From Candidatus Cloacimonadota bacterium (GTDB taxonomy: Bacteria > Cloacimonadota > Cloacimonadia > Cloacimonadales > Cloacimonadaceae), in the NCBI GenBank assembly GCA_029567705.1, contig JAKPXC010000030.1:1-35107 (forward strand): a stretch of DNA of 35,107 nt, given 5' to 3'. The translations under genes were made by a program, and so were the position numbers. Positions within the stretch are counted from its first letter, which is position 1. Every line of letters starts with the position of its first letter. Below, piece after piece: positions 1,934 to 15,229 of the stretch. Below the pieces are notes generated by a model. That model was given only the letters and a program-made list of their open reading frames with translations, ran no database searches and had not been told where the DNA came from.

Positions 1934-2176
1934 AACCCATTTCAATGGGTTTTCAGATGAAAGCGGTGGTTTTAACCACCGTACAAGTGTAACTCACAAT
2001 TTATCAACCTAGTACATACCACGTGAGGAGTAGATTTCGCTCCTGGGCCAGGAGCGAAATCTACTCCTCACGTGGTATGTACAATTATTATCGTGATTTT
2101 GGTATCGTATTATCCAACTATCAGATACGGTGGTTAAAACCACCGCCTTTCATCTGAAAACCCGATAAATCGGGTT
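1934..2176. repeat. Compound inverted-repeat element 1 (A-B-palindrome-B'-A')
   Basis: A: AACCCATT-TC-AATGGGTT 1934-1951. B: CGGTGGTT-TT-AACCACCG 1964-1981. Central perfect 35-bp inverted repeat with 1-nt centre 2012-2082. B': CGGTGGTT-AA-AACCACCG 2128-2145. A': AACCCGAT-AA-ATCGGGTT 2159-2176. Confidence 0.9.
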
Positions 2177-8827: not shown

Positions 8828-8935
8828 ATCGCAGATAATCGGATCGACCGGATTTTCAGGATATAACAGATCGCAGAAGTAGTAGTTTATACCACCTGGC
8901 TGGGTTGCCAGAGAGGATACCGTTCCGCCCACTCC

Positions 8936-9052
8936 GTCATTCCTGTGAAGGCAGTAATCCAGAACAGTACTGTACGTACCGTCATTCCAGCGAAGGCAGT
9001 AATCCAGAACAGGACTATATGCATCGTCATTCCAGCGAAGGCTGGAATCCAG
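8936..9052. repeat. Three GTCATTCCAGCGAAGGCnGnAATCCAG palindromic repeats at exact 45-bp period
   Basis: 27-nt units start at 8936, 8981 and 9026, separated by two 18-nt spacers. Resembles the ATTCC(N8)GGAAT class of extragenic palindromes. Confidence 0.85.
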
Positions 9053-9091
9053 TCATTATACAATTCTCCCGGAGTTAAAGAACGCTGATAA

Positions 9092-9301
9092 ACCCCGGAG
9101 GGGTGACAATCTGATAGCCCAGGGCGTAAGCCCTGGGAATATATGATGTTAACGTATATCTTTTCAACATCCGCTCCCCATAGCTGGAAAATCTCCGATT
9201 TTCCAGCTATGGGGAGCGGATTAGCACGTAATATCCATTATATCATGCTGTTATCCCGGGGCTTCGCCCCGGGCTAGCAGATGGCACCCCCTTCAGGGTG
9301 C
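9092..9301. repeat. Compound inverted-repeat element 2 (A-B-palindrome-B'-A')
   Basis: A: ACCCC-GGA-GGGGT 9092-9104. B: CCCAGGGC-GTAA-GCCCTGGG 9118-9137. Central 25-bp perfect inverted repeat with 3-nt centre 9169-9221. B': CCCGGGGC-TTC-GCCCCGGG 9255-9273. A': GCACCC...GGGTGC 9284-9301. Confidence 0.9.
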
Positions 9302-9514
9302 TTACCGGTGAACCCGTAATAAACGGCGGTAGTGACTTTATCAACAGCCTGCGACCCGATGGGGCTATTGTCGCCATGGTAAGATTCTGCTATTCAATGG
9401 ATTACAGAAATCTATGTCTGCCAGTACCGTTATCGAGTCACTTATACTTCCCAATTTCTTCCGGAGCCTTCGCTTTATAAAGAAAACGTTTCATGGCCCC
9501 AAAAAGAGGAGTGA

Positions 9515-9695: not shown

Positions 9696-12206
9696 ATGAA
9701 ACACGAACTAGATATTTTACTGTCCCATAAAGACGTCATAATTACGTATGATCACCTAAGAATGATGGTCAACTATTCCAGGAATGATTTACATGAATCC
9801 TGTGTAGTAAGATTAGACAAACCACTTGATTATATCCAATATTACCACGATACTGGTAATCTGATTATTAGGGATGTTGACGGAGGGCATAGACTCTTTC
9901 TGCTGAGGCATAAGTCTGTTCTGGAAACAGTGATTGAATCACATGAGAGAGTATCACTAATACACGAGGATTATGTTGTAGCAGAAGGTGATGATGAGAC
10001 ACGTGTATGGCGGATAAGAGACAATAAAATGATGCCGCTTGTATTCGAAAAGGCTTTTATTTGCCAGGAATACCTGGCTAATGATCGATACGTTATCCAG
10101 AAAAGTCCTAATGGAGGTAAGCTTCTGGTTACAGCAGGACATAAAATAGATTTTAGTAATCCTTTGTACACTTTGTTAGCCAGGAATAAACCTACACTCA
10201 CGAACACGATAGAAGATGAAGTGTTTCCAGATTTATCGTTGTCGGTCAGCAACAAAACAAGTTCATATATGATCAGATATAGCACGGCAGAATCATACTT
10301 TGCACTTTACTCTGTGCAGAATGCCAATCCTAAACTGATTAACAAAGTTGATAAACATGCCTGTCGTATACTGCGTATCAGGTTTGCTAATGAGAATTCT
10401 TTTATTTCACTTGATGATGGCGGAAAACTAAAGATCTGGTTGGTTAACGATGGGGATTTGAGTGTCTGTCAGACTATCACTTCTGAAGAGTTTTATAAGG
10501 GCAGTTTTTACTCCGATTTCGATATAGATACTTCAAGGCAGCAGCTAACTCTCAAAACACTGAACCGAATTGATTGCTACAAGTTAGATATCTCAAAATA
10601 CAGAAAACAACAGAAGAATAACCTGATATCATTCATCTATTCTGAAGTCTTCAGTCCGAATCAAGCAGTGCCTGAGGGTGATCTGTATAGAAAACGGACC
10701 GGTAGTGAACGCAGTGGCATTGCGAAACCTAAAGCCTCAAGGGGTGAGTACTATGGTTCCATCTTTCTGAAAAATGGTCCAGAGCAAAGCTATTCGTCTG
10801 AGACCAGACCTATGTCAACTGGAGTTGTTATGGAGCAAAGTGGAATTGACTCATTCATAATTCCAGAGACTGACCTATATGAAACAAAGAATGGGTTGCC
10901 GGACGAACCTAGTTTCATTGGACAAGTCAGTAAAAAATCCCCTGAGATTCATGTCAACAAACCAGGTTCCCGATTTCGAAGGCAACATGCTACCATCTAT
11001 GTGGGTATAGATTTTGGAACCAGTAGGACCAAGGTGTCATTTAACAATGAATCTGAAGGAAGATATGAGCCTCTGTTGTTTACGCACTTACAGCCAAAGA
11101 ATTATGTAAGTCGAGACTTGATTGATGATTATGCGATCCCAAGTATTGTACGCATTCATCAAGACCAGATGTTCTACGGATATGATGCAATAGGTGGACA
11201 AGGTAAAATACTTTCCTTCTTCAAACAGGAGCTCTTGCTTGATAGAGATCCCGATAGTCGGATGATGAGTGTCTGTGCCGGATTTCTTGCTTATGTTATG
11301 ACATTTGTTAAAGATCAGATTTGCTCTCTGACTAACGCCGGGCCTGATGATATGTTCGTCTTCTCGGTTTGTCTACCGGTCGATAGAATGAATAACAACG
11401 CTATTGTAAAAAGATTTGATAAAGTATTGATGTATGCCAAGGAAGTGATGGAGCTTGGTTGCTTAAACAATCTGGAGGAAATCAAGAAGATAATTTGTAG
11501 TTCAAATACTATTGGCGAAACTGAATCGAGAACCAGAACTGCAATTATACCCGAATCAATCGCGGAAGTTTTGGACTACTGTAACAGAAAGGCTAGGAAC
11601 CAACTGTATGCGTTGTATGATTTCGGCGCAGGCACAACTGATCTAACTATTTTCCTCTATAACAGTTTGAAAGGCCAAGCGCAGATAGCTGAGGCACAAG
11701 TAGTAAATAAAGGTTATTCTTACATAGATAGATTAAAGAATAATGGAGTGGTTAATGCTTCCGATGTCAGGAGATACTACTCAGAGATATGGCATGAGTT
11801 TAGAATTCAGGATACCTGGGCTAGAGCAAAAAGGAAGATTGCAGGAATTGAGTCGATGAGATTCTTTTATGACATAACACTTTTCGGAAGTGGCGGAGGC
11901 TTTAATGATGAGATAGTTAGAGATGTATTCAAGAAAGTACCTCTATATCACGAAAGGACCAATGATTTTATCGTTGCCAAATCTGGAATATCAAAACTGG
12001 AAGAGCCAATAGATTGGGATACCACTAAGCCACCATACTTCCGCTATGCAGTTTCGTTTGGACTAACCAAAAAGCCTGAAGAGACGCTAAAGAGTTATCT
12101 CTTGCCCCGTGATTTTCCCATACCTGATAGATCAATAAGAATCCGAACTAGTAAGGAACCGGATGTTCTATATCCTAATAACAGTTGGTTAGGGAGAAGA
12201 AAGTGA
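9696..12206 (+). CDS. Beta-propeller-like / Hsp70-actin superfamily ATPase fusion
   Basis: C-terminal half carries phosphate-1 (YVGIDFGTSRTKVSF), phosphate-2 (LYDFGAGTTDLTIF) and adenosine-like (ITLFGSGGGFNDEIV) motifs. N-terminal about 300 aa are beta-rich and WD40-like (e.g. DDGGKLKIWLVNDGDLSVCQTI). RBS AGGAGGAGCT-ATG. Confidence 0.8.
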   Translation: MKHELDILLSHKDVIITYDHLRMMVNYSRNDLHESCVVRLDKPLDYIQYYHDTGNLIIRDVDGGHRLFLLRHKSVLETVIESHERVSLIHEDYVVAEGDDETRVWRIRDNKMMPLVFEKAFICQEYLANDRYVIQKSPNGGKLLVTAGHKIDFSNPLYTLLARNKPTLTNTIEDEVFPDLSLSVSNKTSSYMIRYSTAESYFALYSVQNANPKLINKVDKHACRILRIRFANENSFISLDDGGKLKIWLVNDGDLSVCQTITSEEFYKGSFYSDFDIDTSRQQLTLKTLNRIDCYKLDISKYRKQQKNNLISFIYSEVFSPNQAVPEGDLYRKRTGSERSGIAKPKASRGEYYGSIFLKNGPEQSYSSETRPMSTGVVMEQSGIDSFIIPETDLYETKNGLPDEPSFIGQVSKKSPEIHVNKPGSRFRRQHATIYVGIDFGTSRTKVSFNNESEGRYEPLLFTHLQPKNYVSRDLIDDYAIPSIVRIHQDQMFYGYDAIGGQGKILSFFKQELLLDRDPDSRMMSVCAGFLAYVMTFVKDQICSLTNAGPDDMFVFSVCLPVDRMNNNAIVKRFDKVLMYAKEVMELGCLNNLEEIKKIICSSNTIGETESRTRTAIIPESIAEVLDYCNRKARNQLYALYDFGAGTTDLTIFLYNSLKGQAQIAEAQVVNKGYSYIDRLKNNGVVNASDVRRYYSEIWHEFRIQDTWARAKRKIAGIESMRFFYDITLFGSGGGFNDEIVRDVFKKVPLYHERTNDFIVAKSGISKLEEPIDWDTTKPPYFRYAVSFGLTKKPEETLKSYLLPRDFPIPDRSIRIRTSKEPDVLYPNNSWLGRRK

Positions 12207-15200
12207 TAGAAATCGGAACCAAAGTTAGAGAGACGAATAATCCAGAAAGTATTGGAGTTGTAGTAAAAATTGGTTATGTAGATGGCATTATTGTCTATAC
12301 AGTTCGTTTCCCGGGAAGGACTAGAAACCTATCAGAATCCAGCATAGCTGTCTATTCGGAAAAGGTGGAAGTCATTGATAACCTGATAAATGGCAAGTTC
12401 GGTGAGTTTAACGACTTCCAGAAAATGCTAACTCACTATAAACTCTTAAGCTCTGACAAGATTCAAAACAACATCTATTCGATCAACTCATCTCGCACTG
12501 TTTTCTATGAGTACCAGTTTAAGCCACTTATGAAGTTTTTGAGTTCTCCAAAACGCAGAATAATGATATGCGACGAAGTCGGACTGGGAAAGACAATCGA
12601 AGCAGGATTGATAATAAAGGAACTAGATGCCAGACGTGAACTCAATAGGATACTTGTAGTTGTTCCGGCAAACCTTATGAGAAAGTGGTCCGATGAGATG
12701 TTCTTTAGATTCAATGATACCTTTACAGTAATAAATGCTCGTGAGTTCACAGATATTATAGAGGAAAAATCAAACACTAGAAACAAGTATGCTAAGAACA
12801 GGTTTATCATTTCAATTGAATCAATAAGATCCAAGAAGATGATGGATACCCTGGATGATACAGATTATCAATGGGATCTGTTGATCGTTGATGAAGCACA
12901 CAGCCTCAGAAACAGCTCTCAACAACATGCTGCCATAAAAAAAATCAGCACAGCCTGCGACTCAATTGTCTTTCTAACGGCTACTCCTATTCATACTGAG
13001 AGAAGGAACCTTTTTAACATCATGAATATCCTGGACGAGCAGCAGTTTCCATACTATGATTCTTTTGAAAACCAACTGCTAATCAACGAACCCGTGATTG
13101 AGGCCCTCAGCCTTATTAGCCAGATACCACCACAGATCGAAAGAGCGATTGAGGCTTTAGCTTCCTTGGAATCTGTGTATCTAAACAATGCTATATTCCA
13201 AGATGTCATGGCGAGTTTACGTGATTACCGAAACATAAAAGCGATCTCAGAACATGATGAATTAGAGAAGATTGTCGATATACAAATGTCTTTGAGCGAT
13301 CTGCACTTTCTAGGTAATACTTATACAAGAACCAGGAAAAGGGATGTTACGATTTGTCGTGCAGAACGTAAACCTCAAACTCGGAAAATAGCATTTTCCC
13401 CAGAAGAACAAGCATATTATGGTGCGATAATGCATAACATTCGAGAACACTCAAGCCATTCTTTCCCCACATCCGTTTTTGTAACCTTCAACGTACAGCG
13501 AATGCTTTCTTCCTCGTTGCATGCTCACAGCTCAAGGTTGATTAGTAAATATATCCAAGATAGCGAATGTCAAGACTTTATCGATCTCGAAGAAAGTATA
13601 TTTGATTGTCAACTGGCTGATGGATACCCTCAATTCCCTGATAGTAAATTTGAGGAACTAACAAAGCTTCTCATTGAAATTCAAAAGCATACTTCAAAAG
13701 TCATTCTCTTTGCTTTCTATATACCCACCTTGAAGTATCTTGAGAAGAGGTTAACGGAAAGGAACTTCAAGACATATATCATGCATGGACAAGCAAAAAT
13801 GGATAGGACAAAAGTTATAAATGATTTTAGACATCAAAGAGGATTCTCCATCATGTTATCATCTCGAGTAGGTAGTGAGGGTATTGATCTTCAGTTCTGT
13901 GATACTCTAGTAAACTACGACCTGCCCTGGAACCCGATGGAGATTGAGCAACGTATAGGGAGAATCGATCGCATAGGGCAAAAGTCACCTTTTTTGAATA
14001 TATACAACTTTAGCATGAAGGACACCATAGATGACGAGATCGTTACCAGATTGTACGATAGGATTTCTCTATTTGAAAAGTCAATCGGCTTACTGGAGCC
14101 TATAATGGGGGAAATCTTAGATCGAATAACGAAAAACGTATTCTTTAACAACCTTAGTGATGAAGACAGGCTCAATCAGTTCAAGCAAGAAGAGATGACT
14201 CTGGCGAAAAAGATAAAGGATCTTCAGTTGCTTGAAGACAAATCCTCTGAGATTCTTAGTCTTGATTACTTCTACGAGCATGAGATCAAAAATATCAAAG
14301 GTAAGAACAGATACATATCTCCAGAACAGTTGTACAAGTACCTAATTGGTTTCTTTGGAGTCAACTATCCTGACAGCATGATAAAGTATGATTTGCATAG
14401 TAACATTGGAGAAATGGTTCTATGTGAAAGCTTCATAAGAGATATCCACTTGAATAACGTAGAAATAGAATTACCCTATAAACTTGATAATCGTACTTCC
14501 AAACCAATCAAGTTCACCATGGATTCTGATTCAGCGTTTGAAAATTCAGACCTGACATTCATTAATGTCTTACATCCTCTGATCAAGTACATTACGAAAA
14601 AATACGACGAGAATGAAAGCAATATGTTGAATACCCATTTCTTCTGTATCTCTGGTGAAGATTTGGAGAAGAAAGGTGTTAAGCTTCCCATAGGATATTA
14701 TTTCTTCTTTCTAAACACGGGATCGATTTACGGACTGCGAGAACAAAGCTATATTATGCCTGTAATCATGAATGAAGACTTAGAGAGCATCGGTACCAGA
14801 GTGTTCACAGAGCATGTCATGTCAATTCTGATAGAGAATGGTAAGCCATCAATACACAAATCCATGTGTGATGATGAAGAATATCTGAAGAAGGCGTACG
14901 AAAGGGAGAAGGAGATATTTCTAAGCTGGTTTATAAAACTCTATCAGAAGCAGGAGGTAAAACAAGAGTTGATCCTTTCCCGTAAGGAGGAAAGCATCCG
15001 CTACAATTATGAGAGGAAAATTCAGCACCAGTATAATGAACGACAAGAGATACTCTCTAGGAGTGGAGAACCTGACAAGAGTCAGAGATTTCGAATAGAA
15101 ATGATTGATGGCAAGATCAATAAACTGAACCAAAACCTTGAAAAGCAATTGGTGAGAATTGAAGCTGAGCGGAATTTAAGTTGGAGCTTTGAAGAGCCTG

Positions 15201-15229
15201 TGATGGGAGGTGTTTTCGAGGTTCTATGA
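12203..15229 (+). CDS. SNF2/RapA-type DEAD/DEAH helicase
   Basis: Motif I CDEVGLGKTIEAGLI; II LLIVDEAHSLRN; III FLTATPIHTERRNLFN; V/VI LSSRVGSEGIDLQFCDTLVNYDLPWNPMEIEQRIGRIDRIGQ. N-terminal SH3/Tudor-like GTKVRETNNPESIGVVVKIGYVDGIIVYTVRFPGRTRNL. Start GTG 12203 overlaps the upstream TGA (GTGA). Confidence 0.9.
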   Translation: MIEIGTKVRETNNPESIGVVVKIGYVDGIIVYTVRFPGRTRNLSESSIAVYSEKVEVIDNLINGKFGEFNDFQKMLTHYKLLSSDKIQNNIYSINSSRTVFYEYQFKPLMKFLSSPKRRIMICDEVGLGKTIEAGLIIKELDARRELNRILVVVPANLMRKWSDEMFFRFNDTFTVINAREFTDIIEEKSNTRNKYAKNRFIISIESIRSKKMMDTLDDTDYQWDLLIVDEAHSLRNSSQQHAAIKKISTACDSIVFLTATPIHTERRNLFNIMNILDEQQFPYYDSFENQLLINEPVIEALSLISQIPPQIERAIEALASLESVYLNNAIFQDVMASLRDYRNIKAISEHDELEKIVDIQMSLSDLHFLGNTYTRTRKRDVTICRAERKPQTRKIAFSPEEQAYYGAIMHNIREHSSHSFPTSVFVTFNVQRMLSSSLHAHSSRLISKYIQDSECQDFIDLEESIFDCQLADGYPQFPDSKFEELTKLLIEIQKHTSKVILFAFYIPTLKYLEKRLTERNFKTYIMHGQAKMDRTKVINDFRHQRGFSIMLSSRVGSEGIDLQFCDTLVNYDLPWNPMEIEQRIGRIDRIGQKSPFLNIYNFSMKDTIDDEIVTRLYDRISLFEKSIGLLEPIMGEILDRITKNVFFNNLSDEDRLNQFKQEEMTLAKKIKDLQLLEDKSSEILSLDYFYEHEIKNIKGKNRYISPEQLYKYLIGFFGVNYPDSMIKYDLHSNIGEMVLCESFIRDIHLNNVEIELPYKLDNRTSKPIKFTMDSDSAFENSDLTFINVLHPLIKYITKKYDENESNMLNTHFFCISGEDLEKKGVKLPIGYYFFFLNTGSIYGLREQSYIMPVIMNEDLESIGTRVFTEHVMSILIENGKPSIHKSMCDDEEYLKKAYEREKEIFLSWFIKLYQKQEVKQELILSRKEESIRYNYERKIQHQYNERQEILSRSGEPDKSQRFRIEMIDGKINKLNQNLEKQLVRIEAERNLSWSFEEPVMGGVFEVL

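Follow-up and report, generated by a model that had tools for sequence, protein, structure and literature searches.

Earlier work on REP dimers has described both structured spacers and compensatory changes (PMC3116915, PMC3733652). The substrates of TnpA_REP and of the IS200 enzymes are single-stranded hairpins accompanied by a guide tag (PMC8266576, PMC3116915). TIRYTs have been reported in Acidobacteria, the phylum in which Acido-Lenti-1 was first described (PMC3733652). Acido-Lenti-1 RNA (RF01687) is filed in Rfam as 'Gene; sRNA' of unknown function (Weinberg, 2010, PMC2864571), and a 2026 study of Tannerella raised the possibility that nearby protease genes are regulated by these motifs (PMC13298647).

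Here, two compound elements were analyzed in a 35,107-nt stretch of DNA from a Candidatus Cloacimonadota bacterium (hereafter, the window). Judging from the sequence comparisons, such an element is in all likelihood a non-coding, non-autonomous, MITE-like (REPIN-like) derivative of an IS200-type transposon, and the enzyme that would move it is almost certainly an IS200-type transposase. Both elements have the order A-B-palindrome-B'-A', and the order and coordinates given in the preliminary description were confirmed to the base. Their features are listed below, with the strand where one was assigned.

Element 1, family F1 (window 1934-2176):
1934-1951, hairpin A
1964-1981, hairpin B, CGGTGGTT TT AACCACCG
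2012-2082, central palindrome with perfect arms of 35 bp
2128-2145, hairpin B'
2159-2176, hairpin A'

Element 2, family F2 (window 9092-9301):
9055-9091, left outer flank, common to other F2 copies by eye, ATTATACAATTCTCCCGGAGTTAAAGAACGCTGATAA
9092-9104, outer hairpin A, ACCCC GGA GGGGT, followed by GACA; inside an RF01687 match
9114-9117, plus strand, ATAG tag (NTAG; compare GTAG of known REPs) abutting the B stem externally, read from the sequence
9118-9137, hairpin B, CCCAGGGC GTAA GCCCTGGG, the putative transposase recognition hairpin
9138-9168, left linker of 31 nt without complementarity to the right linker
9169-9221, central palindrome with perfect arms of 25 bp and a TCC loop of 3 nt
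9222-9254, right linker of 33 nt
9255-9273, hairpin B', CCCGGGGC TTC GCCCCGGG
9274-9277, minus strand, CTAG tag external to B' (the minus strand reads CTAG), read from the sequence
9284-9301, outer hairpin A'; the RF01687 match at 9255-9300 is below GA
9302-9347, right outer flank, common to other F2 copies by eye, terminating in GACTTTATCAACAG

The A-B, B-palindrome, palindrome-B' and B'-A' gaps measure 12, 30, 45 and 13 nt in element 1, and 13, 31, 33 and 10 nt in element 2, exactly as first described. The window contains only two perfect palindromes with arms longer than 9 bp, at 2012-2082 and 9169-9221, and the longest arms in mononucleotide-shuffled windows were 8-10 bp. DNA folding gave z-scores of -11.5 and -20.0 for the two elements. 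The copied unit of F2 extends past A, with an outer boundary read by eye and not computed; also by eye, GACTTTATCAACAG at the end of the right flank of element 2 mirrors GTTGACAAA at the left of other F2 copies.

As to the surroundings, repeats of the form CGTCATTCCAGCGAAGGCTGGAATCC occupy window positions 8930-9055 immediately left of element 2 and by eye resemble CGTC-tagged REPs (PMC3733652). To its right (9696-15229) lie an 836-aa protein, which has no Pfam match, and after it a 1014-aa SNF2/helicase-C protein; the two could be a defence-type pair. Element 1 adjoins MscS, around which synteny was not found in six relatives.

The two elements had been described as variants of one family with a swapped palindrome, a reading that was rejected, as each belongs to its own parallel family with separate copies. 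The assembly that holds the window (G000; 2.48 Mb, 210 contigs, 91% complete, the window being contig C55) contains at least three families of one architecture, F1, F2 and F3, at about 8, 8 and 18+ loci. Four copies of F1 are full length (C55, C182, C106 and C4); others, on C31, C86, C65, C60 and elsewhere in the assembly, are partial or rearranged. F2 is present at 7-8 loci, with relatives of element 2 on C10, C86 (two), C94, C3, C4 and C26, the C10 copy being 94% identical to element 2. The F2 palindrome ATCCGCTCCCCATAGCTGGAAAATC is identical in most copies; in the C3 copy it has double changes that compensate each other (CTCATAGCATG against CATGCTATGAG). For F3, whose B stem reads CCCATRGT/ACYATGGG, 28 exact B hairpins were counted at about 18 loci, and the reversed control gave 0 matches.

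The stems and palindromes of elements 1 and 2 are indeed unrelated (palindrome arms, P = 0.23), because the two are members of different families; inside the families they are mostly related. The linkers, which had been called alignable between the elements, gave P = 0.26 in a local alignment, and their homology was rejected. Between B and B' of element 2 there is indeed an A-T to G-C difference, though not a fresh event: it is common to those F2 copies in which both stems are kept and is thus a left/right difference (heterodimer).

Inverted pairs of REP hairpins with a short spacer, as in REPINs and BIMEs, are present in many copies. The tag external to B is NTAG (ATAG, TTAG or CTAG) in F2 and its relatives and AG in F3; a count over the B contexts in F2, in F3 and in relatives, under a loose orientation filter, gave ATAG 29 times and TTAG 25 times. 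F1 has no NTAG tag beside B, so the outer tag of REPINs (HH) is found in element 2 and not in element 1. In F2 and F3, a hairpin B with an outer NTAG would fit the role of a TnpA substrate.

Two further repeats were observed near these elements. One, with terminal CTGGAGTTTGGACATT, breaks up REP arms in both F1 and F2 and often has a contig end inside it (L005 end, L008, L067, L070 and L077, on contigs C86, C26, C15, C65 and C54 of G000); it is probably an insertion sequence targeting REP hairpins. The other is a separate, abundant palindromic repeat with the core CCGTGTCTTGCAGGACTCTTCCCGAG ... CTCGGGAAGAGTCCTGCAAGACACGG, which often adjoins the elements (L015, L017, L063-L067, L147 and others in G000).

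The tie to IS200/IS605-type transposases that the preliminary description had suggested for a REP/MITE-type family was supported by the genes beside the hairpins. RF01687 matches above GA abut Y1 genes, and about 12 matches, read off the match coordinates, have a Y1 gene no more than 400 bp away; the estimated chance expectation is 0.43. In relatives, these Y1 genes (about 140-157 aa) are flanked by A-B units with B typically 80-90 bp from the tnpA start, giving the full order A-B-linker-inner repeat-tnpA-inner repeat'-linker-B'-A'. The arrangement looked for in an IS200/IS605 derivative, a Y1 HUH transposase between element-type hairpin ends, was found at the following loci:

F1 type: L083, L250
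F3 type: L033
RF01687 type, as F2: L099, L101, L227, L237, L238, L239

On a maximum-likelihood tree, the hairpin type tracks the TnpA clade, with 7 label changes against 15.8 for shuffled labels (0/200). The HUH motif and the Tyr are conserved in the linked transposases, which match Pfam Y1_Tnp and NCBIfam IS200 and have ISHp608 and other Y1 transposases as PDB relatives. No TnpB was noticed at the loci read. An intact cognate TnpA was found in G000, a 91% complete assembly, for F3 only (L033, C182), and the C119 copy is disrupted; for F1 and F2, cognate TnpAs turned up in other genera only. The C171 TnpA (L032) was rejected as the F2 cognate, since the tree places it in another TnpA clade despite an F2-like element about 500 bp away. 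The same order occurs on a plasmid of Persicobacter (Bacteroidota), the one informative outside case in a plasmid collection, with an RF01687 match of 35.7 bits, just under the threshold, and the architecture is therefore not confined to the lineage of the window.

Were the element a classical REPIN, with a canonical RAYT (TnpA_REP) as its mover in place of an IS200-type enzyme, the dimer logic would be the same, namely inverted REPs, an outer tag and a hairpin-capable spacer with compensatory changes (PMC3116915, PMC3733652), and longer Y1 proteins (about 200-260 aa) do occur in G000. However, these longer proteins lie among different short hairpins, both there and in relatives, whereas the hairpin-flanked genes encode the 140-157 aa IS200 type and score 20-24 bits against the cut-off of 80 with the RAYT model NF047646, or nothing. 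We therefore regard a RAYT as an unlikely mover; of the RAYT/IS605-type correlation first proposed, the association with Y1 genes is seen, and these genes fit the IS200 model better than the RAYT model. As a separate observation, L034, L104 and L108 hold Y1/RAYT-like genes of about 200 aa and longer amid other short hairpins (AAGCGACA.., CGTAAACG..), and L034 has in-frame hairpin copies within a methylase-like ORF.

The left half of element 2 (9091-9137) matches RF01687 with 43.4 bits (GA 37), and the right half (9255-9300) scores 25.6 bits, below GA; the Rfam scan gave no RF01687 match for element 1. Across the phylum, matches at E <= 1e-5 were found in 34 of 125 genomes, often as inverted pairs, and many of those in relatives score above GA. 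The miRNA matches in the Rfam scans were taken as chance matches on long hairpins and discarded. The Rfam sRNA entry, the strong predicted folding and the covariation could speak for a structured non-coding RNA, whether a transcript, an mRNA stabiliser or a terminator. Yet the halves occur in inverted pairs and also on both sides of Y1 transposase genes, the copies are dispersed, and those of another genome, G008, are near-identical with different flanks. In addition, since every stem is an inverted repeat, the two strands fold in the same way. An RNA function thus appears quite improbable, and neither it nor the recombination cassette, the other option named at the outset, is favoured, given that no recombinase was found beside the elements and that single halves flank a Y1 transposase gene in relatives.

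The central palindrome changes in sequence while its pairing is kept. In the F3 central helix, both sides were changed in 15 of 23 pairs (0/500 shuffles, with slid controls far lower), compared with 0/8 and 2/8 pairs in the B stems, and in the F1 centre the count was 19 of 34 (0/500 shuffles). These paired changes support the earlier claim that structure is kept beyond sequence. Mean pairwise divergence in F3 was 0.14 for B, 0.11 for B', 0.32-0.34 for the palindrome arms, and 0.60 and 0.48 for the linkers; in both F1 and F3, the A/B hairpins are conserved and the linkers nearly random. The arms mismatch by 1-4% inside one copy and differ by 13-29% between copies, which means that the sequence drifts and the pairing stays. 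The within-copy mismatches were counted in a palindrome-aware manner, as MAFFT had misaligned four F3 palindromes and inflated them. This fast-evolving yet structure-conserved central core is a new point.

The spacing is also kept. Each linker of F2 and F3 is 26-34 nt long, mostly 30-33, and left and right linkers are not complementary in these two families (mean z about 0). A likeness between left and right linkers was considered and rejected, as their gapped identity of 0.58-0.72 was no better than that of shuffled linkers. An element of G012 has linkers of 32 and 33 nt around a palindrome of 26 bp. In G000, the total B-B' distance of F1 is 182-184 bp though the position of the palindrome shifts, and in G023, from another genus, a B-B' distance of 182-184 bp is found in 7 of 9 elements, whose centre consists of two different hairpins. 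The expectation that flanks are conserved while the centre varies thus holds in F1, in F3 and between genera.

A serious alternative for the perfection of the palindrome is that mutation, not selection, maintains it, with template switching across the hairpin copying arm onto arm and no function being needed. Long perfect arms within otherwise degenerate contexts agree with this, as do the partial tandem copy of one arm on C60 (L140) and the palindrome loss on C142 (L150), both typical of replication across hairpins. Against it, mismatched copies persist (10 of 299 arm positions in F3), the short REP stems likewise show paired changes, and linkers of about 31 nt are kept on both sides of the palindrome in F2, F3 and one G012 copy. 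Arm correction would explain the pairing but not the spacing, and we give template switching a real but minority chance. Less probable still is a reading in which single-strand transposition uses the central hairpin as a third functional component: a fixed-length spacer whose palindrome is rewritten arm from arm, by fold-back copying, when elements replicate. If that were true, the palindrome would remain perfect and yet diverge more quickly than the hairpins that are recognized.

The centre had also been described as swapped or variable. An exchangeable cassette, with the palindrome actively swapped between copies through recombination, could account for C56 (L139), which combines one arm with an arm resembling C93, and for centres that differ in kind between genera while B-B' stays at about 182 bp. 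Nevertheless, most F1 and F3 centres are homologous and related by point changes, having diverged through paired substitutions, the F2 copies share nearly identical centres, and no recombinase linked to the elements was found, which makes active swapping very unlikely.

Individual loci deserve mention in their own right. At L139 (C56), one arm is like C190 and the other resembles C93 at several sites, possibly a recombinant or half-corrected hairpin. L150 (C142) is an F3 element without a central palindrome, with B, B' and linker remnants intact, and so is a natural loss mutant. Several relatives carry perfect palindromes with 29-43-bp arms of iterated 10-mers (TCAATACGG.., TTAATCAAG..), unlike the central palindromes of the elements (L084:2035-2117, L086:1139-1199, L087:1288-1366 and L097:548-636).

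The origin of the centre was traced for part of F1. The centres of C60, C86 and C65 match the inner repeats that flank the F1-type tnpA genes of G049 with best scores of 19, 14 and 13 (0/300 shuffles), against about 5-9 for other centre-flank pairings; for C60 the match is TAGACTTTGGGAGGGCTTCAGCCCGA against TAGACTTTGCGAGGAATTCATTCCGA. No match of these three centres was found to F2- or F3-type tnpA flanks. The centre of element 1 (C55) connects to this group via C86 and C65. The F2 and F3 centres have no significant match to inner tnpA flanks, and for them the same origin is an inference. In G008, short elements have two inner hairpins close together where tnpA would be, and so do those of G005, G007 and G025; the G008 copies are about 325 bp long, 94-97% identical, and end sharply in different flanks. 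The architecture offers a natural series: it runs from an autonomous element to a MITE whose centre is a fused palindrome, and one genome contains several families. With this series it can be asked if selection or template switching produces the paired changes seen in long DNA palindromes.

A scheme for the derivation from an IS200-type transposon can be proposed. The short elements would have lost tnpA, and their inner repeats would have merged to form the centre, leaving there either two inner hairpins close together (e.g., G008) or one near-perfect palindrome (G000). On single-stranded DNA, such as the lagging-strand template, B and B' would fold locally, and a Y1 (HUH) TnpA supplied in trans would bind them, cut near the tags and move the intervening strand by excision and insertion. 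The central hairpin would compact the core and fix the end-to-end distance; as a distance-holder, it would keep its pairing while its sequence drifts by paired changes. In predicted DNA folds, a long A/B-B'/A' hairpin is more stable than the local ones, with an advantage of about 18-26 kcal/mol in F1 and of 0.5-9 kcal/mol in F2/F3, so that the local folding of B and B' stays putative. The preference is small in F2/F3, where the left and right REPs differ and the linkers are unpaired, and the central hairpin forms either way.

Compared with REPINs and BIMEs (Bertels & Rainey, 2011, PMC3116915; Di Nocera, 2013, PMC3733652), the elements share inverted REP hairpins, an outer (G)TAG-like tag, dispersed copies, linkage to Y1 genes, and a spacer that forms a hairpin with compensatory changes. 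They differ in that each half is a double hairpin (A plus B), that the spacer has a separate 20-35-bp near-perfect palindrome between non-complementary linkers of near-constant length, and that the linked transposase is of the IS200 type. The likeness to TIRtrons/TIRYTs (PMC3733652), in which a Y1 gene lies between long self-complementary inverted repeats, rests on layout, motif and phylum. The TIRYT motif GGGGWSAS fits GGGGTGAC of element 2, and several TIRs read GGGGCGAC, off at the W position.

With the IS200/IS605 family and its MITE-like derivatives, the elements share subterminal hairpins and a TnpA with HUH and one catalytic Tyr. In IS608, the hairpins lie on the same strand and are not inverted. 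By contrast, the flanking hairpin units at several of the loci described here are inverted (A-B ... B'-A'), and in the elements a central palindrome replaces tnpA. Finally, whereas Acido-Lenti-1 is filed as a candidate sRNA, here it acts like the terminal double hairpin of a transposon. It looks to be better read as the end of an IS200-type transposon, which is a second new point: the current annotation may mislead, and an orphan Rfam 'sRNA' gains a testable function as a transposon end.
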